Source: Thermithiobacillus tepidarius DSM 3134 (GTDB lineage Bacteria > Pseudomonadota > Gammaproteobacteria > Acidithiobacillales > Thermithiobacillaceae). Taken from it: a DNA stretch of 64,000 bases. A program made the translations under genes and the position numbers. Where the stretch lies: the NCBI RefSeq assembly GCF_000423825.1, contig NZ_AUIS01000013.1, positions 1 to 64,000 on the forward strand. The letters are read 5' to 3'. The notes beneath the pieces were generated by a model that saw only the letters and a list, made by a program, of their open reading frames with translations, was not told the origin of the DNA and made no database searches. How positions within the stretch are numbered: position 1 is the first letter of the stretch; every line of letters begins with the position of its first letter. Positions 2,222 to 18,855 of this stretch are shown here, piece after piece.

Positions 2222-2752
2222 CTAAAACCCGCCGCTGGCCACGGTCTCCAGCACCTCGCGGATGTCCTGCTCGAAGGTGTCGAGCGCCGCCGTGCCCGCC
2301 GGGGACAGCTTGTCCTGCGGCAGGCTGTCCCGGATGTGCCGCGGGCGCAGGACCTTGATGGTGGTCTTGCCGCCCGCCTCGAAAAGCGCCATGCGGCAGG
2401 GCGCGAAGATTTCGAACTCGTTGGCCGTGCGGGTGACCTGGTAAGCCTTGCTCAGATTGCAAAACTCCACGAGCTGGATCGGATGCGCCTCGATGCCGCG
2501 CCCCTTGAGTCCTTCCTGCACGTTCAGGACGTTGATGATGGTGTAGTTCTTCCCCTCCAGGGCGGAGATCAGATTCTGCTTGGTGGCCTCGATCCCGCCG
2601 TCCACCGTCACCTGGTACATGAGGCGGTCGGCATGCACGGCCTCCGCGCTCCAGGCTGACGATGCCTGGCATAGCACAGCCAGGTACAGGGCAGCGAGCA
2701 GAAACATCTTCATCAGTGCTGTCGTCGATGCGGTTTTCTCCTGAACGGCCAT
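2222..2752 (-). CDS. Exported DUF302-family protein
   Basis: A 176-residue protein with a signal peptide (hydrophobic run MKMFLLAALYLAVLCQA, cleavage near residue 36). The remainder has the alternating pattern of DUF302 domains (YQVTVDGGIEATKQNLISAL, then VEFCNL and a CRMAL segment). A strong GGAGGAGG about 9 bases upstream supports the start at 2752 over the internal Met at 2713. DUF302 has no settled biochemical function, although such proteins are frequent in sulfur oxidisers (general knowledge). It is the last gene of the minus-strand run that begins with the redoxin and TcDH genes, 31 bp after the outer-membrane protein, so it is probably co-transcribed with it. Confidence 0.75.
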   Translation of the reverse strand: MAVQEKTASTTALMKMFLLAALYLAVLCQASSAWSAEAVHADRLMYQVTVDGGIEATKQNLISALEGKNYTIINVLNVQEGLKGRGIEAHPIQLVEFCNLSKAYQVTRTANEFEIFAPCRMALFEAGGKTTIKVLRPRHIRDSLPQDKLSPAGTAALDTFEQDIREVLETVASGGF

Positions 2753-3877: not shown

Positions 3878-4528
3878 CTACCAGGCGCAAGGACCCGGCT
3901 TGAAATCGGGGCAAGTGGTCCCGGCATCGGTGGCGACGTCCGTCAGCTCCGCTTCCTTGAAGTCCGCTGCGCTGAGATCCGCTCCGCGCAGGCTGACGCC
4001 GCGCATTTCCGTAAAGTACAGGCGGGCCGAATAGAGATCGGCGCCATCGAGCTTGGCACCATGGAGCATGGCAGCCTCCAGGTCCACATATTCCAGCTTG
4101 GCCTGCCGGAAGTCGGCGTTGCTCAGATCGGCGCGGGTCAGCCGGGCCCGATTGAGGTTGGCGCCTTCGAGCCGGGCACCACGCAGATCTGCGTTCATCA
4201 GGTTCACGCCGCCCAGGATGGCGCCGCGCAAATCGGCGCCCTGCAGATTGCAGCCGCTCAGGTCGGCGCCAACCAGATTGATGTTGCGTAGGGCGGCACC
4301 CGCCAGATTGGCGCCGCGCAGATCGGCCCCCAGCAGGCCGGCACCGATCAGTTCCGCGCCGCGGAGATCGCAGGCTGCGCAGGCGTTGCGGCTCAGCAGG
4401 GTTTGCCGGTTGGCCTGCACGTCGCCGGCACCGGCCACCTGCCCGGTCCAGGCCAGCACGGCACCGCAGAGGGCGGCCGCCATGCCGCACTTTCGCCGAC
4501 GTTTCTCCGCATCTGCTCTCATGCCCAT
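3878..4528 (-). CDS. Exported pentapeptide-repeat protein
   Basis: 216 residues from the chosen start. A basic N-terminus and hydrophobic segment (AAALCGAVLAWTGQVAGA) form a signal peptide. Residues of about 50-200 are A(D/N)LXX pentapeptides in tandem (ADLRGANLAGAAL, ADLSGCNLQGADL), which fold as a right-handed quadrilateral beta-helix. A CAAC motif opens the repeat and a CPDFKPGPC segment closes it, so capping disulfides are possible in the periplasm. Two AGGAG sequences sit 7-8 bases before the ATGs at 4528 and 4522; either could be the start. Upstream frame extension would overlap the preceding gene and has no ribosome site. No enzymatic function can be assigned; its position suggests a scaffold or interaction role in the TcDH operon. 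Confidence 0.75.
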   Translation of the reverse strand: MGMRADAEKRRRKCGMAAALCGAVLAWTGQVAGAGDVQANRQTLLSRNACAACDLRGAELIGAGLLGADLRGANLAGAALRNINLVGADLSGCNLQGADLRGAILGGVNLMNADLRGARLEGANLNRARLTRADLSNADFRQAKLEYVDLEAAMLHGAKLDGADLYSARLYFTEMRGVSLRGADLSAADFKEAELTDVATDAGTTCPDFKPGPCAW

Positions 4529-4562: not shown

Positions 4563-5012
4563 TCAGCCCGGGTGATGATGGTGCGCCACGCTGCTCGTCC
4601 GCGCACCCGGCATGAAGCGCGCCTGCACCGGCTGCTGGCCCTTCATCGCCACCGTCACGATCACCCGCAAATCCTGGCTCGGCTGGATGCGGGCATCCTT
4701 GCCGGCCAGCCCATGCTCGCCCGTCGGGCTCAACTTCACCAGGATCCGGCCGCCTGGGCCCACCACGGTCGCCGTGCCCTCGGCGCCTGCAGTCGACTGC
4801 GGCTGGTTGCCATGGTCCGTCATCCACACCTGCAATTCGCCGTTGCGCACCACCAGCTCCATGTGATAGAGCCCCACGGCCCGCAACTGGCCGCCGTGCG
4901 CCCCCTGCATGTGCTGCAGCACCTCGTCGCCATGCGCCCCCGCCAGCCCCGGGCTGAGCAGCAGACAACCGCCGATGAGCAGCACCTTGATTGTCGATCC
5001 GAATCGCCGCAT
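4563..5012 (-). CDS. Periplasmic His-rich small protein, candidate metal (copper) carrier
   Basis: 149 residues. The signal peptide (VLLIGGCLLLSPGLAGA) is cleaved near residue 26. The mature protein begins AHGDEVLQHMQGAHGG and ends SSVAHHHHPG, giving His/Met-rich tails on both sides of a beta-rich core (YHMELVV, ATVVGPGGRILVKL). AAGGAG lies 8 bases before the ATG. It starts 57 bp after the TcDH gene stop on the same strand. I do not recognise a named family. The tails and the copper-enzyme neighbour suggest copper binding or delivery, as in CopC/PCuAC-type carriers, but no canonical CopC or PCuAC motif is visible. Confidence 0.6.
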   Translation of the reverse strand: MRRFGSTIKVLLIGGCLLLSPGLAGAHGDEVLQHMQGAHGGQLRAVGLYHMELVVRNGELQVWMTDHGNQPQSTAGAEGTATVVGPGGRILVKLSPTGEHGLAGKDARIQPSQDLRVIVTVAMKGQQPVQARFMPGARTSSVAHHHHPG

Positions 5013-5068: not shown

Positions 5069-6547
5069 CTAGACGGAGGTGCTGCGCGAAGCCTTGAGCC
5101 CTTCCCAGGATTCCGGCACCACCACGTGGTCGTGATGGCCGCCCGGGCTCGGCAAGCGGGCAACGATCTCGTTGGAATCCGCATGGATCACCACGAGCCC
5201 CGACTGCCCGCCCTGATGGCCGCTGTACACCGTCGTGATGTACTGGCCATCAACCGTGCAGTCGCAGGTGTGCGGGTCCGGGCCGGTGTCCCACTTGGCC
5301 ACCACCTTCCAGGACTTGGGGTCCACCTTGCAGATGAAGCCGTTGTTGGGCTTGCGCGCCCAGATGGTAAAAAAGGCCCAGCGGGAATCCGGCACGTTGC
5401 CCATGTGCAGCGGCAGGTACTTGTCGCCGAAACCCTCCACGAAGGCCTCCTTCTTCCACTTGAGCGGATTCTCGTCCTCCGAGCGGTAGACGGCGATGTT
5501 GTTCTGCAGCACGTTGTTGCAGGCCAGGAAGTACTTGCCGCTGGTGATGAAGCCGGCTTCGTGCAGCGGCGTCAGCACCGACGGCACGCTGAAGGTCCAG
5601 GTGTAGCCCGACTGCTTGACCAGGGGGAAGTTGTCCGGCGCGCCCTTGGCCGTCGACAGCAGCGCCACTGGCTCCCAAGTCTTGGTATTGATGATGGCGC
5701 AGCAGCCCAGGCGACGCACCAGGATGGCGCCCAGTGGCAGGGTCGGATGCCAAGTGAAGGCATCCACGAAGACGGCGGTCGGATCGGCGGGCATCAGTTC
5801 CTCGCCGAGCATGGCCTCGTGGGTGGTTTTGATGCCCTTGCGGCCTTCCAGATCGAACTTGCCGGTGCTCGAATCCGGGAAGACGTGGGAAACGTTCACT
5901 TGGCGGGCCACCGGATCGTAGTCCAGGCGGAACGCCTTGACGATCTTCGGGTTGTCGTCGATGGTGGTGATCAGCACCATGTCCTTCTGGCCATCGGCGA
6001 AGGCCACGTACTTTTTGGCGTTCTCGCCGACACCGATGGACACATGTACCCCTAAGGCCATGCCGGTGGTCGCCGACACATCGTTGACTACCGTGATGGC
6101 ATTCTGTGATCCGCTGCCATCATAGCGCATCTTGAACATCTTGAAGTCACCACGGTTGCGCCATTCGGGCGAATTTTCGTTGACGTAAGGCGCCATGGGC
6201 GGCTGCATGGTCTGGTAGAAATCGAAGCCCTTGAAGGGATCGCCCGAAGGCATGGCGGCGATGTGGTGCGGAATAGGCATGTTGACACCGGCCAGACCAT
6301 AGTTGTACCAAGCCAGCGTTTCCGGCACGCTCAAATCCATGGCCTGGACCGTACCGTTGAATTTGCCCGGCAGCAGCACCACATTGCCCTTGAAGCGCTC
6401 AAACATCTTGTATTGCGCTTCTTTGGCCATTTCTGCCGCACTACGGGCCGCTGCATTGGCATCTCTCATACCCGGATAAGCACCGAATGTACCCAAGGCG
6501 CCGGCTGCAAAGGCGCCTTTGATAAAGTTTCTCCTGGAAATAGTCAT
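5069..6547 (-). CDS. Thiocyanate dehydrogenase-like, Tat-exported copper beta-propeller
   Basis: 492 residues. It has a twin-arginine signal (SRRNFIKGAF) with cleavage near Ala34, then a propeller-like repeat pattern distantly like the N-terminal domain of NosZ. Residues K62, H94, H168, E250, D262, H329, H381, H426 and H472 match the Lys/His/Glu/Asp set I recall for Thioalkalivibrio paradoxus TcDH (K103, H135, H206, E288, D314, H381, H437, H482, H528). The spacings K-H 32, H-E 82, D-H 67 and H-H-H 45/46 are identical. TcDH oxidises thiocyanate to cyanate and sulfur at a tricopper site in the periplasm. GGAAAGG before ATG 6547 fixes the start; the longer frame adds residues ahead of the Tat motif. 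The gene starts 28 bp after the redoxin gene, so the two are one operon. No cytochrome or cyanase gene is in the window. Confidence 0.82.
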   Translation of the reverse strand: MTISRRNFIKGAFAAGALGTFGAYPGMRDANAAARSAAEMAKEAQYKMFERFKGNVVLLPGKFNGTVQAMDLSVPETLAWYNYGLAGVNMPIPHHIAAMPSGDPFKGFDFYQTMQPPMAPYVNENSPEWRNRGDFKMFKMRYDGSGSQNAITVVNDVSATTGMALGVHVSIGVGENAKKYVAFADGQKDMVLITTIDDNPKIVKAFRLDYDPVARQVNVSHVFPDSSTGKFDLEGRKGIKTTHEAMLGEELMPADPTAVFVDAFTWHPTLPLGAILVRRLGCCAIINTKTWEPVALLSTAKGAPDNFPLVKQSGYTWTFSVPSVLTPLHEAGFITSGKYFLACNNVLQNNIAVYRSEDENPLKWKKEAFVEGFGDKYLPLHMGNVPDSRWAFFTIWARKPNNGFICKVDPKSWKVVAKWDTGPDPHTCDCTVDGQYITTVYSGHQGGQSGLVVIHADSNEIVARLPSPGGHHDHVVVPESWEGLKASRSTSV

Positions 6548-6575: not shown

Positions 6576-7214
6576 TTAAATATCGCCCTTCTTCCAATTC
6601 TGTGCACCCACGAACACCTTCTCCACGGTGCCGTCCGCCTTCAAAACGAAGACTGTTGGCAAGCCTCTGAAACCCAGGCGATTGGATATGGCTTTCGGAC
6701 TCAATGCGTCATTCGGAGCAACGTAAACAGCATTCATCAATCCGTGCTCCTTGTGGACCAGCTTGGCTGTCCTGATCGTGGCCTGCAACGCCTTGGACGG
6801 GCCCCCTTCCAAAGCAGTACCGACCGTGTCGGCATGAATGCTAAAGACCTGGACGCCGGGTGCATTCGTTTTTACAAATTGCTCCAGCTTCTTTACTTCG
6901 TTTATGGAAGCAGGCGCTCCGGAAATGAAGAACGCGATCACGCTCCGCTTTCCACTGATCAGCCGGTTGAGATCGACCTTGCTGCCGCTTTCGTCATACA
7001 CATCGAAATCGGTCGGAAACTTTTGACCAATACCAATGCCTTTGGGAAACACATCTCCACCAACCTGCTCCGCCGTTGGAAAGACCCCGTCCTTGCTGTC
7101 CGCCAGCACGCTGCCCGCTGCGAGCAGTCCGGCAAGCCCGCACACGGCCACCAGGGAAGGCTTGCCCAGCGTTCCCCAGGCAAGTTTTCTGCTCTGCTTT
7201 TCCTCTGCTTTCAT
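6576..7214 (-). CDS. Exported redoxin/TlpA-fold protein without catalytic cysteines
   Basis: 212 residues from ATG 7214, which has GGAGGA about 6 bases upstream. A membrane or signal segment (LVAVCGLAGLLAAGSVLA) is followed by a thioredoxin-like fold with GQKFPTDFDVYDESG, the strand SVIAFFISGAPAS and the cis-Pro loop GFRGLPTVFVLKADG. The position of the usual CxxC or peroxidatic Cys reads SGAPAS, and the mature protein has no cysteine at all. It therefore cannot act as a thiol oxidoreductase or a classical SCO copper chaperone. It is the first gene of the TcDH operon, behind a sigma-54 promoter. A structural, sulfur- or copper-handling role beside TcDH is inference. Confidence 0.7.
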   Translation of the reverse strand: MKAEEKQSRKLAWGTLGKPSLVAVCGLAGLLAAGSVLADSKDGVFPTAEQVGGDVFPKGIGIGQKFPTDFDVYDESGSKVDLNRLISGKRSVIAFFISGAPASINEVKKLEQFVKTNAPGVQVFSIHADTVGTALEGGPSKALQATIRTAKLVHKEHGLMNAVYVAPNDALSPKAISNRLGFRGLPTVFVLKADGTVEKVFVGAQNWKKGDI

Positions 7215-7308: not shown

Positions 7309-7324
7309 TGCAATCGCCATGCCA
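7309..7324 (-). promoter_or_regulatory. Sigma-54 promoter of the redoxin-TcDH operon
   Basis: On the minus strand the sequence is TGGCATGGCGATTGCA. It matches TGGCAC-N5-TTGCA with the required GG-N10-GC spacing and one mismatch. The predicted start is near 7298, giving an untranslated leader of about 84 nt before ATG 7214. Confidence 0.75.
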
Positions 7325-7497: not shown

Positions 7498-8844
7498 TCA
7501 CAGGCCCGGATACTTGAAGATCAGATACATCCACGCCTTGCGCGTATCCGCGTTCAAGCCGGTCGTGCCGGGGAACGCAGCGCCTTCGCCGTCTTTGGCT
7601 GAGTAGTCCGCGTATTTCGCGGCCAGCAGCAGGTTTTTGTTGGCCTGATACGTCGCCAGCAGGTCCAGCTCGTTGCCGTAATGCAGCCCCTGCGCGTCGG
7701 AGCGGTACTGGTGATAAACCGCCCATAGGTTCAGCGGGCCCGCCACGTTGGCACTGGCCGTCACATGCAGATCCTTCAAGCCGGTCGCTGGCGTCGCGGT
7801 GAACATGTTCGCCCAGCCATTCAGCGGATGCTTGGTGGCGAAGGGGGTTTGAAAGGCGTAAGTTGCCGTGTCGTTGGCGCCGAGGACTTCGTAATCGGCG
7901 CGCAGATACCAGCGCGCCGCGGCCACGCCGGCGCCCAGGTGCCAATAGCTGGCATCGACGTCCGGACGACCGTCCGCGTAATCGCTTTGCTTGGCGTACT
8001 CCGCCGTATACAGGATGCGGTACTGGCCGGGCGCGATGCCCTTGACGGTGCTCAGCAGGCTGGGATCCAGCGTCAGCTTGCCCGCGCCCGGCGCGGCGCC
8101 GTCCAGCCGGATGCCGTAGGTCTGGCTCGAAATGTTGCTGGCAGCGCCGTCGGGCTTGCTTTTGTCATCGTAGAGATAGCCGTAGGCCACCAGATGGGTG
8201 TTGCGGACGGGCTCCACGTCCGCATGCAGCACGTAGGTGCGCATCGGCTGCAGATTCAAGCCGGCCGGCAACTGGAAGTTGGCATAGCTCGACTTGGTAC
8301 GGAACAGATAACCGGCGAACAGAGTGGTGTTCGGCAGGCTCTTATTCTCGACGGTGACCGCGTCGAAGGTCTGCGGGCTCTGCCGCCAGTCCACGCTGCC
8401 GAAGAAGCGCTGGTTGGCCAAGTTGACGAGTTGCCGGCCAAGACGCAGTTGGGTGTCCGGCAAGCCGGCATAGTTCAGGAAGGCCTGGTTCACCTTGGTC
8501 GACTCGGGATCGGCCACGACCGGATATCGGACCAAGCCGTTTTGCGTGTCGTTGTAGCGCTCCTCGTCCGCCAGGCTCACCACATTGCTGAACTCCAGTT
8601 TGGCGCTCAGCCCGCCGATGGGCTTGGTGCCGTAACCCAGGATGGTGCGCAGGGTAAAGGCATGTGCATCGCTCGGCTTGCCGTCCTGCTGGACGAACTC
8701 GTAGCGGGGCCGGAGCTCGACGTTGAACTGCCCCCCGGCCAGGGCGTTGACCAGCGCGTCGTCTGCCGCAACAGGCGGAATCATGCCCGCGCCCAGGCAC
8801 AGCAGGACGCCGCGCTTGCAAAATGGGTTGCATTCGATAGCCAT
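7498..8844 (-). CDS. Alginate-export-family outer-membrane porin
   Basis: 448 residues. A short signal sequence ends near VAADD. The body has alternating barrel strands typical of the alginate_exp/OprD-like family: VELRPRYEFVQQD, the LRLGRQLVNLANQRFFGSVDWRQSP segment (hallmark RLGRQ...FVG-like) and a C-terminal strand KAWMYLIFKYPGL. Family members form 18-strand substrate channels. The substrate here is unknown; thiocyanate or another anion is a guess from context. GGGAGGGGGAG precedes the ATG. It is expressed from its own sigma-54 promoter and ends at a strong terminator, so it is a separate unit within the putative regulon. Confidence 0.75.
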   Translation of the reverse strand: MAIECNPFCKRGVLLCLGAGMIPPVAADDALVNALAGGQFNVELRPRYEFVQQDGKPSDAHAFTLRTILGYGTKPIGGLSAKLEFSNVVSLADEERYNDTQNGLVRYPVVADPESTKVNQAFLNYAGLPDTQLRLGRQLVNLANQRFFGSVDWRQSPQTFDAVTVENKSLPNTTLFAGYLFRTKSSYANFQLPAGLNLQPMRTYVLHADVEPVRNTHLVAYGYLYDDKSKPDGAASNISSQTYGIRLDGAAPGAGKLTLDPSLLSTVKGIAPGQYRILYTAEYAKQSDYADGRPDVDASYWHLGAGVAAARWYLRADYEVLGANDTATYAFQTPFATKHPLNGWANMFTATPATGLKDLHVTASANVAGPLNLWAVYHQYRSDAQGLHYGNELDLLATYQANKNLLLAAKYADYSAKDGEGAAFPGTTGLNADTRKAWMYLIFKYPGL

Positions 8845-9010: not shown

Positions 9011-9026
9011 AGCAATTCCCGTACCA
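9011..9026 (-). promoter_or_regulatory. Sigma-54 promoter of the porin gene
   Basis: The minus-strand sequence TGGTACGGGAATTGCT matches TGGCACG-N4-TTGCW with a single mismatch and correct GG-N10-GC spacing. The predicted start is near 9000, leaving a long leader of about 155 nt. Confidence 0.78.
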
Positions 9027-9203: not shown

Positions 9204-10595
9204 TCAGTCGCTGTCGGAGGGGGTATTGCATTCCGCGGCGGGGCCGCCCTCGGCTTGCAAGCCGTACTGGCGCATCTTCCGCCACAAGGTGGTACGGCCG
9301 ATGCCAAGCTCCCGCGCCGCTTCGCTGATGCTTTCGAAGCGTTCGAGCGCACTCTCGATGAGCAGCCGCTCGGACAGGGCCAGGTTCAGCACGCCGCTGC
9401 GTTCCCGGTGCGGACTGGCCGACGTCTTGCTGTGCTTCAGCACCTCCTCCGGGAGGGCATCGACGTCGATCCAGTCGTTTTCATCCGCGAAAACGGCCAT
9501 CTGCTCCACGAAGCTTTCGAGCTCCCGGATATTGCCCGGATAGCTGTAGCCGACCAGGTGGGACATGGCGCGCTCGGTAAGCCTGAGCTTCGTGCGGCCG
9601 TATTTCGCGGCGTACTTTTGCAGCAAGCTGTCCAGCAGGGAGATCAGGTCGTCGCCGCGCTCGCGCAGGGGCGGCAGGTGCAGGCGCACGCCCTTGATGC
9701 GATAGTACAAATCCTCCCGGAAGCGGCCGCTCTCGATCAGCGCGCCCAGATTCTGGTTCGATGCCGCCAGCACGCGGATGTCGATGGATTTCCATTGATT
9801 CGAGCCCACGCGGCGCACCTGGCGGTCCTGCAGCACGCTCAGCAGCTTGGCTTGCATGGCCGGCGACAGGGTATCGACTTCATCGAGGAAGATCGTCCCC
9901 CGGTCCGCCGCCTCGAAAAGACCCGTCCGGGATTCCGTCGCGCCCGTGAAGCTGCCGCGCACGTGGCCGAACAGTTCGCTCTCCAGCAGCTGCTCCGGCA
10001 GGCTGGCGCAGTTGATGCTCACGAAGGGAAATGCGGCGCGCGGGCTCCTGTCATGGAGCAGCCGGGCGATCCGGCTCTTGCCGGTGCCGGTCTCGCCGGT
10101 GATCAGCACGCTGAGGTCCGTCTGCGCGATGCGCTCCACGCGGATGAGCACGGCCCGCATCTCGGGACTGCCGCTCACCGGGACGTACGCCTGCGGCAGG
10201 GGCACGGCCTTGGCCGGCTGCCGGCTCACGCAATCGCGAAAGGCCGTGCAGGCATTGATCTTCTCGACGATATCCTTCTCCTGGAACGGCTTGGTGAGGT
10301 AATCGAAGGCTCCCAGGCGCATGGCCTCGACCGCCGATTCGATGCTGGCATAAGCCGTGATGACGATCACCGGCAGGGTCTCGTCGCGGGTCTTGATCGC
10401 CCGCAGCAGATCGATGCCGCTCATGCCCTCCATGCGCATGTCGGTGATGACCGCGTCGAAGGTCTCGGCGTCCAGCAGCGCCAGCGCCTCCGCACCGCTT
10501 GCCGCCTCGCCGGTTTCGAAACCGGCGTTTTGCAGCATGAGCGACAGGCTGCGCCTGAGGCTCCGCTGATCGTCCACCAGCAACACCCGCGTCAT
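9204..10595 (-). CDS. Sigma-54-dependent response regulator (NtrC family)
   Basis: 463 residues. The receiver domain has phospho-acceptor Asp52 and K102 of the TKPF motif. The AAA+ domain has Walker A GETGTGKS (167-174), sigma-54 contact loop GSFTGA (214-219, Ser replacing the usual Ala), Walker B (TIFLDEVDTL) and an arginine finger region (FREDLYYRIKG). The C-terminal Fis-type helix-turn-helix contains SEAARELGIGRTTLWRKM. The ATG overlaps the kinase stop as ATGA, so the pair is translationally coupled. It is the only sigma-54 activator in the window. It sits between three operons that carry sigma-54 promoters with a shared palindrome, so I infer it is their activator. It may be co-transcribed with the RND genes and thus autoregulated. 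Confidence 0.92.
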   Translation of the reverse strand: MTRVLLVDDQRSLRRSLSLMLQNAGFETGEAASGAEALALLDAETFDAVITDMRMEGMSGIDLLRAIKTRDETLPVIVITAYASIESAVEAMRLGAFDYLTKPFQEKDIVEKINACTAFRDCVSRQPAKAVPLPQAYVPVSGSPEMRAVLIRVERIAQTDLSVLITGETGTGKSRIARLLHDRSPRAAFPFVSINCASLPEQLLESELFGHVRGSFTGATESRTGLFEAADRGTIFLDEVDTLSPAMQAKLLSVLQDRQVRRVGSNQWKSIDIRVLAASNQNLGALIESGRFREDLYYRIKGVRLHLPPLRERGDDLISLLDSLLQKYAAKYGRTKLRLTERAMSHLVGYSYPGNIRELESFVEQMAVFADENDWIDVDALPEEVLKHSKTSASPHRERSGVLNLALSERLLIESALERFESISEAARELGIGRTTLWRKMRQYGLQAEGGPAAECNTPSDSD

Positions 10596-13252
10596 CTCGT
10601 GCTCCTCCGGCCGCTGTCCGTGTTTACTTCGGTCAGCGGCATTCGCAGAAAAAAGCGCGTGCCCGCGCCCGGGCGGCTCCAGATCCGGATCCGCCCCTGC
10701 CATTCGCTGACGAAACGCCGCACGATGGCCAGCCCCAGGCCCGCGCCCTGCGGACGCTGACTGTAGAATGGCTCGAACACCCTTTGCCGGTCATCTAGCG
10801 CAATGCCGCGCCCGCTGTCCCCCACCACGATCAGCAGCGCCCGCCCCTTCACCGCCGCCCTGACGAACACCCGGCCGCGCGGCCCGGTGGCCTGGACGCC
10901 GTTCAACAGGAGGTTCCACAACACCTCCTGCAAGCCATCGGCATCGAACATGATCCGGCCATTGCCGAGGACCCGCTGCTCGACGCTGATTTCAGCCTCC
11001 TCGTGGCGGATGTGCTGCTCCAGGCCGGCGCATACGCCGCGGACCAGTTCCGTGAGATCCACTTGGCTGACGACGCGCCGCGAGCCCTTGCCGAAACTCA
11101 GGAAATCGCGCGTCAGCTTGTCCAGGCGCCTGATCTCGTGGCCGATGATCTGCAGCGCCATGTCCGTCCGCTCGGCGCCGCCGCATGCCGCCTTGAGCAC
11201 GGCGACGCAGTTGGCAATGGCGCTGACCGGATTGCGCACCTCGTGGGCCACCGTCGCCGCCAGCTGGCCCAGGACGGCGAGCCGCTCGCTGCGCAGCTTG
11301 CTCTCCTCCGCCGCCTGCAGCTGCGCATTCAGATCACACAGGTTCTCGTAGGTGCGCGCATTGCTGATGGCAATGCGCACCTGGCCCGCCAGCAAGGCGC
11401 CCTTTTCCAGGGTTCGGCGGCTGTACTGCACCTGCGCCGCCCGGAACAGCCCCATGAGGCCGATCAGGCGCCCCTCCTCCAGCAAGGGAAACACCGCCAG
11501 CGCCCCCCATCCATCCTGCCGATCCGGGTGCTGCGCTGGATCGCTGGCCAGCTCGTGCCAAAGGAAAGCCCGCGGCCCGTCGTCGAGTTTGTAGCGCCGC
11601 AGCAGGTTCGCGCCCAGGACATCGGCCTCGCAGTAGCAACCCTCGGCGCTGGCCCGCCCGATCCCCTCGCCGAAATAGCTGCTCGCCGGCACCAGCTCCT
11701 GGCTGGCCCCGTTCAGCAACCAAACGACAGCCCCGTCGCTGTCGAACAGCCGCGCGCTTTCACGGCACACCGCCTGGAGCACCTGATCGAGATCCAGGGT
11801 GGAGGTCAGCAGCGAAGACAGCCGGAACAGGGCGGACTGGAAGCGGCAGGCTTCCGACCAGCTCTGGTGCAGCAGGGCGTTGTTGATGATCGGGCCGACC
11901 TCCGCCGCCAACCTTTGCAGTTGCCCATAGCTGTCGGCCGGCGGCTCACCCGCATCGAGCTCCACCTCCAGATAACCCAGCGGCGCGCCGCCGGCCTGCA
12001 GCGCCAGAGCCACTTGCTGTGCTCCGGGAGCTGCTTCCGGGTGGTCCTTGGCAGGGCAGACGGCCAGCCTCTCCGCAGCCGACCCGCCAAGACGGGCGTT
12101 GGCCTGAAGCGGAAGCACCCGGATCGGCCAGGCGGCAGCCCACCGGTTCACCTTGAGCTGCATTTCGCAAACCTCGTCCGGGGACACCGTCAGGACCAGC
12201 TTGCAACGGGCCGGGCTGATGACCTGATTGAGGGCCCGGTACACCGCCGCCAGCGTGTTGTCCAGTCCTTCGGCGCTGATGGCTTCCTTGGCCATGCGAT
12301 TGCGGACCATCAGCTCCTCGTTGGCGCACTTGAGCGCCGACTGGGCTTTGGTCAGGTACTGGTTGGCCTTCTTCAGCACGCCGCGCGATTCTTCCAGCTG
12401 CCGCAGCGCCCATAAATAGCCGGCCAGCACCATGAACAGGATGCTGATGTAAAACAGCACCTTGATCCCGTGCCACAGCCACCAGGCCGCATTCCACATG
12501 CCGGAATAGCCGAACAGGTAAGCGCTTTCGGCAAAGAGCAGCAGCAGCGCCGCGACCGCCAGCGGCAAGGCGGGACCTTGCTTCCGGTACTGGGCATACA
12601 AGCCGAGGGCGGCTACCAGATAGAACAGGGCCGCGAGCTCGTGCGCCACTTTTTCGGCCTGGGAAAACACATAGCCCTCGACGCTGCTCTCCACCAGGCT
12701 CAGCAGGCTGGACGTGTGCACGACAGCCACCAGCGCCGCCACGACCAGCGCGCTCGCCGCGATTTCCTTGCCGGTGGGCCGCCAGTGCTGCGGCACCATG
12801 CGGTGGGTGACGACGCCGACCAGGATCAGGATTCCGCCCGACAATGTCGAGAGCGTATGCAGCAGGACAAAGAGGTAGGGGCTGGCGAAGGGATTGCTGA
12901 AGGCGTGCAGGATATCCAGGATGCCCATGGCCAGAAAGGCCGCGCCGAAGAGCCAGAAATCGGCATACCGGCGCCGAGTGTTGATGGCGAAGATCAGCAC
13001 TGCGATCATCAGCGCCACCAGCCCGCAGAAGAGCTCGACGAGGGCATGGGCCTTGACCTCGATGTACTGGACCTGCAGCATGGCCGCATCCGCCATGCCG
13101 AGCAGAAGCAGCGGCATGGCCAGGAGCAGCACCACCAGCAGGAGGCCGCTCCAGCGCAGCCAAGGCAGTTCCCTGCCCTGCCAAAACAGCGCCAAGCGCA
13201 ACGCGGCCCCGGTATCCGCCGTCGCCGCACCCGTCAGTGGCTCCTTTGCCAT
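10592..13252 (-). CDS. Membrane sensor histidine kinase with MASE3-like and GAF domains
   Basis: 886 residues from ATG 13252. About eight hydrophobic helices span residues 30-290; the second to third helices carry FWLFGAAFLAMGILDILHAF, typical of MASE3-type sensors. A coiled linker and two GAF-like modules follow (about 340-500 and 510-650). The HisKA domain has ATVAHEVRNPVSAI, and the HATPase has NLLLNGVQ, GDSGRGI and GAGLGLAIV. The start at 13252 has a GGGGGT site; the upstream ATG at 13321 has none. It overlaps the response regulator by ATGA. Architecture and coupling resemble the PrsK/PrsR type of sigma-54 two-component pairs. The sensed signal is not visible; a membrane-soluble or periplasmic cue is likely. 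Confidence 0.88.
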   Translation of the reverse strand: MAKEPLTGAATADTGAALRLALFWQGRELPWLRWSGLLLVVLLLAMPLLLLGMADAAMLQVQYIEVKAHALVELFCGLVALMIAVLIFAINTRRRYADFWLFGAAFLAMGILDILHAFSNPFASPYLFVLLHTLSTLSGGILILVGVVTHRMVPQHWRPTGKEIAASALVVAALVAVVHTSSLLSLVESSVEGYVFSQAEKVAHELAALFYLVAALGLYAQYRKQGPALPLAVAALLLLFAESAYLFGYSGMWNAAWWLWHGIKVLFYISILFMVLAGYLWALRQLEESRGVLKKANQYLTKAQSALKCANEELMVRNRMAKEAISAEGLDNTLAAVYRALNQVISPARCKLVLTVSPDEVCEMQLKVNRWAAAWPIRVLPLQANARLGGSAAERLAVCPAKDHPEAAPGAQQVALALQAGGAPLGYLEVELDAGEPPADSYGQLQRLAAEVGPIINNALLHQSWSEACRFQSALFRLSSLLTSTLDLDQVLQAVCRESARLFDSDGAVVWLLNGASQELVPASSYFGEGIGRASAEGCYCEADVLGANLLRRYKLDDGPRAFLWHELASDPAQHPDRQDGWGALAVFPLLEEGRLIGLMGLFRAAQVQYSRRTLEKGALLAGQVRIAISNARTYENLCDLNAQLQAAEESKLRSERLAVLGQLAATVAHEVRNPVSAIANCVAVLKAACGGAERTDMALQIIGHEIRRLDKLTRDFLSFGKGSRRVVSQVDLTELVRGVCAGLEQHIRHEEAEISVEQRVLGNGRIMFDADGLQEVLWNLLLNGVQATGPRGRVFVRAAVKGRALLIVVGDSGRGIALDDRQRVFEPFYSQRPQGAGLGLAIVRRFVSEWQGRIRIWSRPGAGTRFFLRMPLTEVNTDSGRRSTR

Positions 13253-13359
13253 TGCACCCCCACGCCCATGGCGCCGGCCCGCCCAAGCGGACCGGCTCGC
13301 CGTTGCGCCTTCAGAAACCATGCGTTTTCAATCTATCTTACCACAGCAGCCGGCAGCCC

Positions 13360-16300
13360 TCAGCAGCGTCCCAGAGAGCCCCGCCGGGCCAGAGCAGCGA
13401 AGGCCGTCGGCATGACCAGGAGGTTGAGCAGGGTGGAGCTCAGCATCCCGCCGAGCAGCACGAGCGCCAAGGGCCGCTCCAGCTCCTTGCCCACCGGATC
13501 GCCGATCATGAGAGGCAGCACGGCCAAGGCGGCGGTCAGGGCCGTCATGAGAATCGGCAGCAGGCGCTCCCTGGCCCCCTGCTCCGCCACCGCGCAAAAG
13601 TCCGCCGCGTCCCCCTGGCGCTGCGCCAGGGATTGGCAACGGGCGATCAGCAGGATGCTGTTGCGCGTAGCGATGCCAAAGAGGGCGATCAGGCCGACCA
13701 GGGAGGACACGTTCAGGGTCTCCCCTGCCAGCCAGAGCGCGGCCACGCCGCCGATCAGCGCCAACGGCACGTTGGCCATTACCAAGCTCGCCAGGCGCCA
13801 GTTGCGGAAGGCCTGGGTCATGATGATGAACATCAGCAGCAGGGCGCCGGCGCCGGACAGCATGAGGTTGCGGCTCGCGCGCTGCTGGCCGATGTAATCG
13901 CCGCCGAACTCCAGCGAGTAGCCGGCCGGCAGGACCACCTGCCGCTGGATGCGGGCCCGGGCCTCCTGCACGACGCCGTTCAGGTCCCGTCCCTCCACGT
14001 TCCACTGGACCACCGCGCGCCGCGCGCCGCCGTCGCGGTTGACCACGTACGGCTCCTGCACGGCCACCAGCTCCGCCACCTCGCGCAAGGGCACCAGGGT
14101 GCCTGCGGGGGTGCGCAGCGGCAGCTCGCCCAACCGGCCGGCGTCGGTGCGGGCGTTCTCGGCCACCCGGACGAAGAGGTCGAAAGCTTTGTCGTGCTCC
14201 TGCACCTTGGACACCGGCACGCCGTTGAGCGCCATGCCCGCCTGCCCGATCACCTCCGCCGGCGTCAGGCCGTAAGCGGCGGCGACGTCGCGCCGCACGC
14301 GGATGTCGATGCCCGGCACCAGGATCATCGGCTCACCCTGCAGGTCGACCACGCCCGGCGTCCCGCGCACCGCCGCCAGGATCTCCTGCTGCTTGGCCTG
14401 CAGCACCCGGAAGTCCGGCCCGTAGACCTTCACCACCACCTGCGCCCGGACCCCGGACAGGATCTCCGACATGCGGTGGGCGATGAATTGGGAGACGTTC
14501 ACCGCCATCCCCGGAATGTCCGCCAGCCGCTCGCGGATGTGCTGCATCACCGTCGGAGTATCGGTCGCCCCCCGCTTCACGGTGATGTCGAATTCGCTGA
14601 AGTTGACCGGCTGCGCGTCCTCGTCCAGGCGCGAGCGGCCGGCGCGGTGGGCCACCGTCTCGATCTGGGGCAGCTCCTCGAGGCGCCGCTCCACCTCGCG
14701 CCCGACACGCAAGTTCTCCTCCAGCGAAGTGCCCGGCATCAGGGTGGCGGCGACGATGATGTTGCCCTCATGGAAAGGCGGCAGGAAGGACTGGCCCAAG
14801 CGCGGCAGCAAAGCCAGCGCGGCCGCCAGCGGCAACAGCATCAGGAGAACGAGCACGAGGCCGGGATGGCGCAGGCAGGGCCGGAGCACGCGCCGGTAAC
14901 CCGCGATGAGCCCCGCCGCCAAGGGGCTCAGGTGATAGGCGCGCGGCGCGCGCTGCCGCCCGAGCAGGTAATAGGACAGCACCGGCACCAGGGTGAGCGC
15001 CACCACGAGCGAGCTGCCGATGGCCGCGAGATAAGCGATGGCCAGCGGCGCGAAAATGCGGCCCTCGATGCCCTGCAGGAAGAACACGGGCATGAAGGCC
15101 GCCACGATGACCAGCGTGGCGTAGATCACCGCGTTGCGGATCTCGCGGGAACCTTCATAAACGAGCTCCAGCGCCGGCCGCGGCGCCTCGCTCTGCCGGT
15201 TCTCGCGCAGGTGCCGCAGGATGTTCTCCACGTCGATGATGGCGTCGTCCACCACTTCGCCGATGGCGAAGACCAGGCCGCCCAGGGTCAGGGCGTTGAT
15301 GCCCACCCCGGCAAGCCACAGCACCATGACGCCGGCAAGCAAGGAGGTGGGAATGGCCACCAGGCTGACCACCGTCGGCCGCCAGCGGAACAGGAAGAGG
15401 AAGAGCACCAGGGCGACGATGATGGAGGAATGGAGCAGCGCTTCCTGGAGATTGTCGATGGAGCTTTCGATGAAGCTGGCCTGGCGGAACACGTTCGGAA
15501 TGAGCTGCACGTCCTTGGGCAGAGTGTCGGCCACCTGCCTGAGTACGCCCTCGACCGCGCGGGTGGTCTCCAGCGTGTCCGCCCCCCACAGCTTCGACAC
15601 GGTGCCGATCACGGCGGGTCCCTGGTAGATCTGCGCGTCACCGCGCTTGATCTCGCTGCCGAAGCGGATCTCCGCCAGATCCGCCAGGGTAATGGGCTGG
15701 CCCTCCTGGCTGCGGACCAGGCTGGCCGAGACGTCCTGCAGCCCCTGCACGCGCCCGTTGGCGCGCACGAAATACTCCTCCTCGCTCGTGGGATAGACGA
15801 AGCCGCCGGGCGCGAGGGCGTTGCTGCCGCGCGCGGCGGCCACGATTTCGTTGAAGGCGACCCCGTACTTCTGCAACTGCAGCGGGTCCACCATGATCTG
15901 GTACTGCTTGACGCCGCCGCCGATCGCCGTCACCGACGCCACGCCCGGCTGCGCCAGCAGGCGGTTGCGCACCTCCCAGTCCACCAGACTGCGCAGCTCA
16001 TGCTCGCGGAAGCGCCCGGACCAGTCGACCAGGCCGAACTTCAGCAGCCAGCTCACCGCCGAGGTGACCGGCATGAGCTGCGGCGCCGCCACGCCGTCGA
16101 TCAGCTGCCCCTGGGTCATCTGCAGGCGCTCCTGGATGATCTGGCGCGCGCGGTACACGTCGACGCCCCAATCGAATACGATGGTGATGCGCGACAGGCC
16201 CACCGACGAGTTGGAGCGGATCTGCTCGATGCCGGGCGCACCCTGCAGCGCCACCTCCAGCGGCCGGGTCACCAGCGCCTCCACGTCCTGCGCCGCATAG

Positions 16301-16464
16301 CCGGGCGCCTCGGTCTGGATCTGCACCTGCGGCGGCGCAAACTCGGGAAACACGTCCAGCGTCATGCGCCCCGCCGCCGCCACCGCGGCGCCGGCCAGCA
16401 GAGCATACAAGAGCAGCACCGCCATGCGGTTGTTCAACGACCAGCGGATGATTGCATCGAACAT
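13360..16464 (-). CDS. Heavy-metal RND efflux pump, inner-membrane subunit (CusA/CzcA family)
   Basis: 1034 residues, full family length. An N-terminal transmembrane helix (MAVLLLYALLAGAAVAAAG) is followed by the conserved FPEFAPPQVQIQTEAPG, two large periplasmic loops and 11 further helices. The TM4 proton-relay motif reads AIGEVVDDAIIDVEN, which marks the heavy-metal subfamily rather than drug pumps. AGGAAGGA before ATG 16464 fixes the start; the frame extends 67 codons further, without a ribosome site, into the adaptor gene. It starts 10 bp after the adaptor stop. Copper or another divalent metal is likely given the neighbours, but metal specificity cannot be read from the sequence. The kinase gene follows 107 bp downstream on the same strand. 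Confidence 0.9.
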   Translation of the reverse strand: MFDAIIRWSLNNRMAVLLLYALLAGAAVAAAGRMTLDVFPEFAPPQVQIQTEAPGYAAQDVEALVTRPLEVALQGAPGIEQIRSNSSVGLSRITIVFDWGVDVYRARQIIQERLQMTQGQLIDGVAAPQLMPVTSAVSWLLKFGLVDWSGRFREHELRSLVDWEVRNRLLAQPGVASVTAIGGGVKQYQIMVDPLQLQKYGVAFNEIVAAARGSNALAPGGFVYPTSEEEYFVRANGRVQGLQDVSASLVRSQEGQPITLADLAEIRFGSEIKRGDAQIYQGPAVIGTVSKLWGADTLETTRAVEGVLRQVADTLPKDVQLIPNVFRQASFIESSIDNLQEALLHSSIIVALVLFLFLFRWRPTVVSLVAIPTSLLAGVMVLWLAGVGINALTLGGLVFAIGEVVDDAIIDVENILRHLRENRQSEAPRPALELVYEGSREIRNAVIYATLVIVAAFMPVFFLQGIEGRIFAPLAIAYLAAIGSSLVVALTLVPVLSYYLLGRQRAPRAYHLSPLAAGLIAGYRRVLRPCLRHPGLVLVLLMLLPLAAALALLPRLGQSFLPPFHEGNIIVAATLMPGTSLEENLRVGREVERRLEELPQIETVAHRAGRSRLDEDAQPVNFSEFDITVKRGATDTPTVMQHIRERLADIPGMAVNVSQFIAHRMSEILSGVRAQVVVKVYGPDFRVLQAKQQEILAAVRGTPGVVDLQGEPMILVPGIDIRVRRDVAAAYGLTPAEVIGQAGMALNGVPVSKVQEHDKAFDLFVRVAENARTDAGRLGELPLRTPAGTLVPLREVAELVAVQEPYVVNRDGGARRAVVQWNVEGRDLNGVVQEARARIQRQVVLPAGYSLEFGGDYIGQQRASRNLMLSGAGALLLMFIIMTQAFRNWRLASLVMANVPLALIGGVAALWLAGETLNVSSLVGLIALFGIATRNSILLIARCQSLAQRQGDAADFCAVAEQGARERLLPILMTALTAALAVLPLMIGDPVGKELERPLALVLLGGMLSSTLLNLLVMPTAFAALARRGSLGRC

Positions 16465-16474
16465 GGCATCCTTC

Positions 16475-17644
16475 CTAATGGTGGTGATCGTCCCGGGGCT
16501 GCGGCTGTCCGCCCGCCGACATGCGGTAGACGCCCTCCAGGAGCATCTTGCCGCCGACGACCACCCGTTCGCCGCTCCGTACCCCGGCCACCTGCAGCCA
16601 GCCGTCGGCCGCCGACAGCACACGCACCGGCCGCCGCTCATAGCGGCCGCCGCCCCGCTGCACATAGACGAGCGGCGTGAGATGCTGCCCCAGGACGGCG
16701 TCGCGCGGCACCCACACTCCAGCGGAACGGCCCAGCTTCAGGTTCACCTGCACCACCTCGCCGATCGCCCCCGGCACCGCGCCGCCCAACGGCACGACGA
16801 AGCGGCCGCGCCGCGTCTTCTCATCCAGGCTGGGCAGCACCTGGCTGATGCGCCGCTCGAGGCTCCGGCCGTTGCCCAGCCGGACCTGCGCCAGCACTCC
16901 CTCCCGGATGGCGCCCTGCATGTCGGGGAAGAAATAGCCCTCCACCCGCAGCGGCAAGCGGGTGGACACCATGCGGGCGAGGGACCGTCCCATCACCACG
17001 TAATCCTTCATGGTCCTGTCGCCGGCGTTGACCAGCGAGCCCGGCTGCACGAAGACCTCGGTCACGATGCCCGGCTCCGGAGCGACCACCGGCAACTCCT
17101 CGCGGATGCGGCCGCTCTTCTGCAGCGCCTGGATATCCGCCTCCGACAGGCCCCACCATTTGAGATTGTCCACCGCGTCCTGCATGTAATTGGGCAGCCG
17201 GCCCTCCTCGCGCAGGGTGCTCAGCTTCTCCTCGTTGCTCAAGAGGGCCAGATAGGAACGCTGGGTCAGCACGAACTCCGGGCTGTAGATGGTCGCCAGC
17301 AGGGCGCCCTTGGCGACCCGCTGCCCCGGCCGCACCAACACCTGGCGGATCTCCCCGCTCACATAAGTGTTGACGTCCACCACGGCCGCCGGGTCCGGCA
17401 CCAGTTGGCCCAGTGTCTGGACCAAGCCGCCTTTGCTGGCCTCCCGGGCCGGCACCGTCACCAGCAACCGCTCGATGCCCGGGCCCTGGCTGTCCGGCGC
17501 CACGATCACGGGCTGTGGGGCCGCCGCCTGCGCGGTGGAGCGCCCCTGGAAGGCGCCTGCGCTGCCGTGAGCCGCCGCCTCGCCCAGCGGGCCGCCGCAC
17601 ACGGCGAGCGCGAGTAGCATGAAGCTCGATCGCTTAATGTCCAT
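16475..17644 (-). CDS. RND periplasmic adaptor (CusB-like)
   Basis: 389 residues. A signal peptide (FMLLALAVCGGPLGEAAA) precedes a His-containing mature start (HGSAGAFQG). The barrel-sandwich half-motif GEIRQVLVRPGQRVAKGALLATIYSPEF and hairpin segment LTQRSYLALL are characteristic of CusB-type adaptors; beta-barrel and membrane-proximal domains follow. The C-terminus ends RDDHHH, a possible metal ligand. It overlaps the upstream adaptor gene by 11 bp and precedes the pump gene by 10 bp, so the three form an operon. No outer-membrane TolC-like partner is encoded nearby; one must be supplied from elsewhere. Confidence 0.9.
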   Translation of the reverse strand: MDIKRSSFMLLALAVCGGPLGEAAAHGSAGAFQGRSTAQAAAPQPVIVAPDSQGPGIERLLVTVPAREASKGGLVQTLGQLVPDPAAVVDVNTYVSGEIRQVLVRPGQRVAKGALLATIYSPEFVLTQRSYLALLSNEEKLSTLREEGRLPNYMQDAVDNLKWWGLSEADIQALQKSGRIREELPVVAPEPGIVTEVFVQPGSLVNAGDRTMKDYVVMGRSLARMVSTRLPLRVEGYFFPDMQGAIREGVLAQVRLGNGRSLERRISQVLPSLDEKTRRGRFVVPLGGAVPGAIGEVVQVNLKLGRSAGVWVPRDAVLGQHLTPLVYVQRGGGRYERRPVRVLSAADGWLQVAGVRSGERVVVGGKMLLEGVYRMSAGGQPQPRDDHHH

Positions 17645-18518
17645 GCGCCTCCCCCTCGAAACGCACCATGGCCGGCAGGCTGCCGGCCAGCCGCACGCCC
17701 GGCGGCAGCCGGCCCGGCTTCAGCCGCACCTGCTGGCGCTGGGTGACCGGATTCACCACGCCATAGACCTCCTGGACGACCGCGCTCACCACCGCCGGCT
17801 CGCGCCCCCAGTGCTGGATGAACACCCGCGCCTGCTGCCCCTTGCGGAGCCGCGCTGCCCGCACAGCCGGCACGCTGGCCTCGATCACGAAAGCATCAGG
17901 CTTGGCGATGCTCGCGAAAGTCGTGCCGGTGGCGGTGAACTGGCCGGCCTGCACGCCGGCGTTGAGGATCTGTTTGTTGGCCGCATTGATGGCGATCAGA
18001 TAGCCCGAGACCGGCGCGGTCACCGCGATCCGGCGCACGGGCTCGCCGGTGGCCTCGAGCTGGCGGATGTCCCGGTCCGACATGCCGCGCCAGCGCAAGC
18101 CCATCCGCCCCTGCATCAGCTTCTCCTCCGCCGTCATGCTGATCTGCTTGATGGCCTCGCGGTTGGCGAAGGTGGCAATGTAAGTCCGCTGTACCGTCTC
18201 CAGCTCCGCGCTCTCCAGCTCGCCCAGCACCTCGCCTTGGCGCACCCGTTTGCCCAGGTAGAGATTGCGCAGGCCGACCACGCGGGCATTGACCCGCACT
18301 GCCACGTTGACCACCTTGCGCGGGTCCACGCCGATGCTGGCGGGATACAGTTCGCGCGGCAGCGCCGCCGCCCCATTGATCGCGTGCTCATGCCCCAGCG
18401 CCGGCCCAGCCCCCGCTGCCCCGCCCTTGAACACCCCCGCGTCCGAATGCGCCAGGGCCACGGCGGGAAAGAGCGACAGCGCGACGAGCGCCGCCAAGGA
18501 GCGAGATACGATCGACAT
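17634..18518 (-). CDS. Second RND/HlyD-type periplasmic adaptor
   Basis: 294 residues. ATG 18518 has GGGAGGTG 7 bases upstream. The signal peptide ends at ALAHSDAG, and the mature start has HSDAGVFKGG and GHEHAING, again His-bearing. A biotinyl-lipoyl-like half (GLRNLYLGKRVRQGEVLGELESAELE), a long helix pair and the second half (TAPVSGYLIAINAANKQILNAG) follow. It is shorter than the CusB-like partner and probably has fewer distal domains. Two adaptors in tandem for one pump may form a mixed hexamer, or one may be a metal carrier; both are inference. It is the first gene after the perfect sigma-54 promoter. Confidence 0.82.
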   Translation of the reverse strand: MSIVSRSLAALVALSLFPAVALAHSDAGVFKGGAAGAGPALGHEHAINGAAALPRELYPASIGVDPRKVVNVAVRVNARVVGLRNLYLGKRVRQGEVLGELESAELETVQRTYIATFANREAIKQISMTAEEKLMQGRMGLRWRGMSDRDIRQLEATGEPVRRIAVTAPVSGYLIAINAANKQILNAGVQAGQFTATGTTFASIAKPDAFVIEASVPAVRAARLRKGQQARVFIQHWGREPAVVSAVVQEVYGVVNPVTQRQQVRLKPGRLPPGVRLAGSLPAMVRFEGEAHGH

Positions 18519-18564: not shown

Positions 18565-18580
18565 TGCAACGGCCGTGCCA
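18565..18580 (-). promoter_or_regulatory. Sigma-54 promoter of the RND operon
   Basis: The minus-strand sequence TGGCACGGCCGTTGCA is a perfect match to TGGCACG-N4-TTGCA. The predicted start near 18554 leaves a 36-nt leader before ATG 18518. Confidence 0.88.
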
Positions 18581-18652
18581 GCGGCGCTATGCGAGGAAGG
18601 GCTTGAAAAAACGGAGCTTGGAACGGGAGCGATGTTTCACTTGCGGATGTCG

Positions 18653-18669
18653 CGTTTCACAGTGAAACA
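18653..18669. promoter_or_regulatory. Activator-binding palindrome (UAS) of the RND operon
   Basis: CGTTTC-ACAGT-GAAACA extends to the perfect palindrome GTTTCAC-A-GTGAAAC (18654-18668). It lies 73-89 bp upstream of the -24 element. A lone TGTTTC half-site lies at 18633-18638. It is the same motif as at the porin and TcDH operons. Confidence 0.75.
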
Positions 18670-18778
18670 CGAGCGGAACAAGCAACAGGAGGCACTGACC
18701 AGGACTATGGCCAAGGACAGCGATGCGACCGAGCGGTCGTTCGGCGGTGGGGAAGATTAGATGACAGGCGAGGGAAAT

Positions 18779-18855
18779 TGGTCGGGGCGAGAGGATTCGA
18801 ACCTCCGGCTTCTGCCTCCCGAAGGCAGCGCTCTACCAGGCTGAGCTACGCCCCG
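18779..18855 (-). tRNA. tRNA-Pro(CGG)
   Basis: 77 nt including an encoded CCA. The acceptor arms CGGGGCG and CGCCCCG pair, the anticodon stem CTGCC/GGCAG encloses the loop TTCGGGA with anticodon CGG, and the T-arm has GGTTCGAATCC. It lies 12 nt downstream of ispB on the same strand, so it may be read from the ispB transcript. Confidence 0.97.

Follow-up and report, generated by a model that had tools for sequence, protein, structure and literature searches.

We propose that Thermithiobacillus tepidarius DSM 3134 probably possesses a neutrophilic (Thiohalobacter/Guyparkeria-type) thiocyanate dehydrogenase (TcDH). The analysis shows to which family the protein belongs, its modelled fold and conserved ligands, the cluster and promoter sites of its gene, and the selection that acts on it. 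The gene (tcdh, 5069..6547) lies on the minus strand of the window, the 64,000-nucleotide stretch of contig NZ_AUIS01000013.1 analysed here, and runs from an ATG at 6547 to a stop codon ending at 5069. Its product is a predicted Tat-exported seven-bladed propeller of 492 residues. The N-terminus (MTISRRNFIKG) contains the Tat-signal motif SRRNF, and Tat-signal models of NCBIfam and Pfam match around their thresholds (TIGR01409 over its cut-off at 18.3 versus 16.7 bits, PF10518 under it at 19.7 versus 22.7 bits), in agreement with a first-pass annotation that had described the protein as Tat-exported. A phmmer search of solved structures found nine sequences, all nine of them TcDH, the best match being the enzyme from Pelomicrobium methylotrophicum (pmTcDH, 8q9x; E = 2.4e-81, residues 47–491), with that from Thioalkalivibrio paradoxus (tpTcDH, 5f75) at E = 2.4e-72. 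Identity in the alignments is 39–40% to pmTcDH and 35–36% to tpTcDH. Membership of the TcDH family is secure, and thiocyanate is, judging by sequence and structure, the likely substrate. Both the enzyme and its gene cluster are of a known kind, and the window provides one more member of the neutrophilic TcDH type.

The AlphaFold2 model of the protein draws on 40 proteins of the window and the loci and reaches a mean pLDDT of 85.6 and a pTM of 0.86. TcDH chains occupy the first 20 ranks of a Foldseek search with this model, and VIA-align superposes it on TcDH over 439–445 residues with an rmsd of 1.7–3.0. In the same comparison the modelled fold gives Z scores of 55–57 to TcDH entries versus at most 33 to any other propeller. 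The general fold is common, and NirN, cd1 reductase and nitrous oxide reductase do appear among the matches, far below TcDH. A protein from another propeller family with look-alike histidines (nitrous oxide reductase, selenium-binding protein/methanethiol oxidase, NirF/NirN or YVTN lactonase-like) can nevertheless be discounted almost entirely, as these families reach only Z ≤33 and ≤14% identity, none of their Pfam models matches, and every TcDH ligand is present. The first-pass annotation had put forward a candidate thiocyanate dehydrogenase, and both by sequence (phmmer) and by fold (Foldseek) the top matches are all TcDH rather than another propeller family, with the tricopper ligands aligned.

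Active-site residues were mapped in an alignment of 72 sequences that included tpTcDH (5F75, numbered according to PMC6504805). The 13 published TcDH active-site residues, K103, H135, H136, Q156, H206, E288, D314, H381, H437, H482, H528, D529 and R544 (PMC6504805), are all identical in the window protein, where the ligand and cavity residues are K62, H94, H95, Q115, H168, E244, D262, H329, H381, H426, H472, D473 and R488, respectively. Nine of these positions had been proposed earlier from spacing, using T. paradoxus numbers that match those in PMC6504805, and eight of the pairings are correct in the alignment (K62=K103, H94=H135, H168=H206, D262=D314, H329=H381, H381=H437, H426=H482 and H472=H528). 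The ninth is wrong: E250, taken for Glu288, corresponds to Glu294, while Glu288 is represented by E244 (in THEAML), and both positions are conserved in every aligned sequence. Likewise, the quoted spacings of 32, 67, 45 and 46 stand, but the histidine–glutamate spacing of 82 is an accident of the six-residue shift from E244, the real distance being 76 here versus 82 in tpTcDH. Two His–His spacings that had gone unquoted differ between the window protein and tpTcDH (74 versus 71 and 52 versus 56), and H95, Q115, D473 and R488 are conserved residues absent from the earlier set. With E244 in place of E250, the alignment puts the proposed residues on the tricopper ligands and supports a predicted tricopper thiocyanate-oxidizing site, with two reservations that are taken up below, the in vitro inactivity of the Thiohalobacter FOKN1 protein and the growth record of the host. 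The match to TcDH in residues and family is far beyond chance.

When 84,980 species genomes were scanned, 74 relatives emerged, and 24 full-length relatives are 78–85% identical to the window TcDH. Among these are proteins from Thiohalobacter thiocyanaticus HRh1 (82%), Paracoccus thiocyanatus (80%), Guyparkeria SCN-R1 (79%) and Thiobacillus thioparus DSM 505 (79%), as well as from Rhodoplanes, Amaricoccus and several thiocyanate-bioreactor genomes. The nearest are reactor Afipia/Hyphomicrobiales proteins (L004 and L006, 83–85%); a Nevskiaceae MAG has a TcDH with 59% identity to the window protein. In the tree the window protein lies within a 26-row neutrophilic set with full support and, weakly, beside the reactor Afipia/Hyphomicrobiales proteins, and a branch of ∼3.2 changes per site (2.05 + 1.17) separates the crystallised enzymes from this set. 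A convincing TcDH match occurs in one of 143 genomes of the class, the window's own, and the one other genome of the host's family has none. The sequences suggest horizontal transfer of TcDH, because close identity spans alpha-, beta- and gammaproteobacteria and Acidithiobacillia. Carriage on a plasmid was rejected, the only such matches, at 32%, being in Methylocella tundrae.

The tcdh ORF is unbroken, and purifying selection acts on it. Comparison with eight relatives gives dN of 0.11–0.16 and dS of 0.8–1.6 (dN/dS ∼0.1), and where the clade is otherwise invariant the window TcDH departs from it at just four sites, none of them a ligand. A decayed gene or pseudogene is ruled out by the intact ORFs, the low dN/dS and the small number of clade-unique residues. 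The tcdh of Paracoccus sp. S-4012 (L027:10001-11453) is apparently frameshifted in its assembly, which may be real or a sequencing error. The scan also uncovered a large TcDH-like clade with members from Planctomycetota, Melainabacteria, Verrucomicrobiota and other groups, comprising most full-length members of L036-L038, L040-L042, L044-L054, L057-L060 and L062-L076, that keeps all site residues except His482. This residue is Gln in 32 of the 33 clade rows (Glu in one) and in L036, the same change as in the laboratory mutants 6SJI (H482Q) and 8YU5 (H447Q). In L045, genes for ABC transporters of the MacB/FtsX type follow the TcDH-like gene.

The genes around tcdh are likewise on the minus strand. 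Directly upstream is a gene for an exported thioredoxin-fold (Redoxin/AhpC-TSA) protein (6576..7214) that lacks CxxC and has its sole cysteine in the signal region; the same gene directly precedes TcDH in 23 relatives. A sigma-54 (−24/−12) site, TGGCATGGCGATTGCA (7309..7324), lies ∼95 bp upstream of this trx-tcdh pair. It is preceded by a gene for an outer-membrane porin (Opr/Alginate_exp type, 7498..8844), which is unmatched beside TcDH in the relatives and has a sigma-54 site of its own upstream, TGGTACGGGAATTGCT (9011..9026). Further upstream are genes for a sigma-54 response regulator (receiver, AAA+ and Fis HTH domains; 9204..10595) with 57–65% identity to the regulators in the relatives' TcDH clusters, a sensor histidine kinase (MASE3 membrane domain, GAF, HisKA and HATPase; 10592..13321), a cusA-type RND cation pump (13360..16464, inferred start codon), a cusB2-type adaptor (16475..17644) and a cusB1-type adaptor (17634..18518, inferred start codon), with a third sigma-54 site, TGGCACGGCCGTTGCA (18565..18580), upstream of cusB1. 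Downstream of tcdh lie genes for a small exported His-rich protein (4563..5012) with conserved HGG, YH.E and W.TDH motifs, a putative copper binder whose gene is downstream of TcDH in 24 relatives, and for an exported pentapeptide-repeat protein (3878..4528, inferred start codon) with conserved CxxC and C-terminal cysteines, found near TcDH in 22 relatives. By tblastn the relatives share with the window cusB1, cusB2, cusA, the kinase, the sigma-54 regulator, the thioredoxin-fold gene and TcDH, together with the His-rich and pentapeptide genes. The window therefore has the Cus-linked cluster of the neutrophilic type (cusB1, cusB2, cusA, kinase, sigma-54 activator and a CxxC-less thioredoxin-fold gene upstream of TcDH), in the upstream order described for the Thiohalobacter and Guyparkeria TcDH clusters (PMC6504805), and the two conserved downstream genes extend that described cluster.

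With a strict or loose pattern, a −24/−12 site was found upstream of the thioredoxin-fold gene in ∼17 of 24 loci, the window included, where ∼0.07 per locus is expected. The site is present in 11 of the 13 relatives with a full regulator match and in none of five loci (L010, L020, L025, L027 and L029) with a regulator match absent from their flanks. The thioredoxin-fold protein has been suggested to carry zero-valent sulfur (PMC6504805); such a role as a persulfide carrier is unlikely for a protein that is cysteine-free once mature. The TcDH cluster encodes no CXXCH cytochrome, and a profile search for flavocytochrome c (PF09242) gave no match but carries no weight, since its positive control gave none either. 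The cluster starts immediately beyond the 3′ terminus of tRNA-Pro(CGG) (18565-18855), and the contig end carries the remnant of an ISL3-type transposase (9-284), which gives it an island-like appearance; a second copy of the tRNA-Pro 3′ end was looked for as a flanking repeat and none was found. A DUF302 gene (2222-2752, minus strand) is also located near the cluster. Several Thiobacillus loci likewise have DUF302 genes close to TcDH, and one more is noted within the sox cluster in the genome paper on T. tepidarius.

From these data we infer the copper content, substrate, electron acceptor, induction and physiological use of the enzyme as follows. The sensor kinase and sigma-54 regulator would turn on cusB1-cusB2-cusA, the porin gene and trx-tcdh via the −24/−12 promoters, and copper would be handled by the Cus-type system together with the His-rich protein. 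TcDH would exit folded via Tat, hold three coppers in its central tunnel, and convert SCN− and water to cyanate and elemental sulfur, while a c-type cytochrome in the periplasm would take up the two electrons. Ordinary sulfur oxidation could then use the sulfur, and the cyanate, with cyanase lacking from the host genome, would decompose or exit the cell. The reading as TcDH is favoured by the oxidation of elemental sulfur by the host, by relatives of 78–85% identity that include thiocyanate oxidisers and by conservation of the cluster. Against it are the no-growth record, the inactivity seen with FOKN1 and HRh1, the long branch, the F436L, W287H and Y164N changes, and the lack of a cyanase and, in the cluster, of a CXXCH cytochrome.

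The host (assembly of 2,958,498 bases in 43 contigs) grows at pH 5.2–8.0, oxidizes elemental sulfur and possesses rhodanese. For T. tepidarius DSM 3134, thiocyanate is given among the energy sources without growth in the published account (PMC5037610). Cyanase (PF02560) is absent from the host genome, as it is from the genomes of T. thiocyanoxidans and of P. thiocyanatus, a species that grows on thiocyanate. Since both of these other organisms lack cyanase, its absence is insufficient to explain the phenotype of the host and, given P. thiocyanatus, cyanase does not define the neutrophilic TcDH type. With regard to the SCNase pathway, the NHase-alpha subunit (PF02979) is absent from the host genome, while T. 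thioparus DSM 505, the positive control, matched. The latter, a type strain, contains a TcDH cluster (L022) and an NHase-alpha/SCNase gene (L084) in one genome, so that on genome content alone its growth on thiocyanate is not creditable to one pathway. A pH mismatch is a plausible reason for the lack of growth, as thiocyanate degradation is optimal at pH 8.8 in the FOKN1 culture and at pH 9.5 for tpTcDH, versus the range of the host. A working enzyme that is unexpressed or irrelevant to growth would best accommodate the growth record; this reading refines the assignment as TcDH, and the two are not mutually exclusive. We consider the chances even that a working TcDH was silent or useless for growth in the conditions tested, being uninduced, starved of copper, kept at a pH that is too low, or detoxifying only, in which variant it would clear the thiocyanate that rhodanese forms from cyanide and thiosulfate. 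The no-growth record beside an intact, constrained gene with four clade-unique residues only, the pH values above, the rhodanese of the host, and the difficulty with which one TcDH-positive Thioalkalivibrio strain adapted to thiocyanate are all consistent with this; the lack of cyanase, shared with P. thiocyanatus and T. thiocyanoxidans, is not in itself the reason.

Near the ligands, the neutrophilic clade is fixed differently from the crystallised group (changes include W287H, F436L, QGG to QPP and Q382E), and in place of T169 it mostly has Glu. Y164, through which electrons are proposed to reach cytochrome c552 in T. paradoxus (PMC9456337), aligns with N123 of the window protein, a pairing that is uncertain because the loop holding N123 (119–128) is modelled with low confidence. 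No direct biochemical proof for the neutrophilic clade was found in the literature searched. Purified FOKN1 TcDH, of the neutrophilic type, did not oxidize SCN− in vitro and HRh1 extracts were inactive; FOKN1 has abundant TcDH and accumulates cyanate, and HRh1, which is without SCNase, overproduces a TcDH-sized protein on thiocyanate (PMC6504805). The clade might comprise TcDH-like tricopper enzymes with another natural substrate, for example another sulfur or pseudohalide anion, some of their hosts using thiocyanate via other enzymes. The long branch to the characterised enzymes, the altered second shell, the inactive FOKN1 protein, the no-growth record, and the additional NHase-alpha/SCNase gene of T. 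thioparus DSM 505 would all fit such a substrate, which we regard as quite improbable in view of the oxidation of thiocyanate by HRh1 and Guyparkeria SCN-R1 with an NHase-alpha/SCNase match absent, the induction or abundance of TcDH on thiocyanate, the origin of several clade members in thiocyanate reactors, and the identical first shell. It is also rather unlikely that the clade forms a TcDH subfamily of its own, in which the second shell is rebuilt and electrons leave by another route (Tyr164 and an adjacent cytochrome both being absent), and that the T. tepidarius enzyme has a role or substrate other than thiocyanate growth.

TcDH is not named in Thermithiobacillus in the literature searched, in which PMC6504805 lists only Thermithiobacillus cusB genes. 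The complete cluster predicts thiocyanate oxidation at ∼44 °C, contrary to the published growth record, and this conflict of genotype and phenotype is the main interest of the find. A thermophile-derived member of a clade with one purified, inactive protein could settle thiocyanate turnover by neutrophilic TcDH and its electron acceptor, and a stable enzyme would serve in the treatment of thiocyanate wastewater.

Among known systems, tpTcDH (PDB 5F75, EC 1.8.2.7) and pmTcDH (PDB 8Q9X; Z 55–57) resemble the window protein in fold, in the 13 active-site residues and in Tat export, but are only 35–40% identical to it across a long branch, the window clade having W287H, F436L, T169E, Y164N and other changes. 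Thioalkalivibrio shares sigma-54/kinase regulation with the window, although its clusters contain copCD, tatA, ABC transporters and fccAB in place of the Cus system and thioredoxin-fold protein. The thiocyanate desulfurase of Afipia_64_1782 from thiocyanate reactors (489 residues, PMC8061750), a prediction only, is of the same family; its host has a cyanate hydratase, unlike that of the window. The HRh1 and Guyparkeria SCN-R1 systems (PMC6504805) differ from the window, in which an Opr-type porin gene, served by a separate sigma-54 site, is placed between regulator and trx, and whose moderately thermophilic host within the Acidithiobacillia is without cyanase and reportedly does not grow on thiocyanate. 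They share with it the same ligands and second shell at 82% and 79% full-length identity, cusB1-cusB2-cusA, the kinase, the sigma-54 regulator, the Cys-less thioredoxin-fold protein and the two downstream genes.
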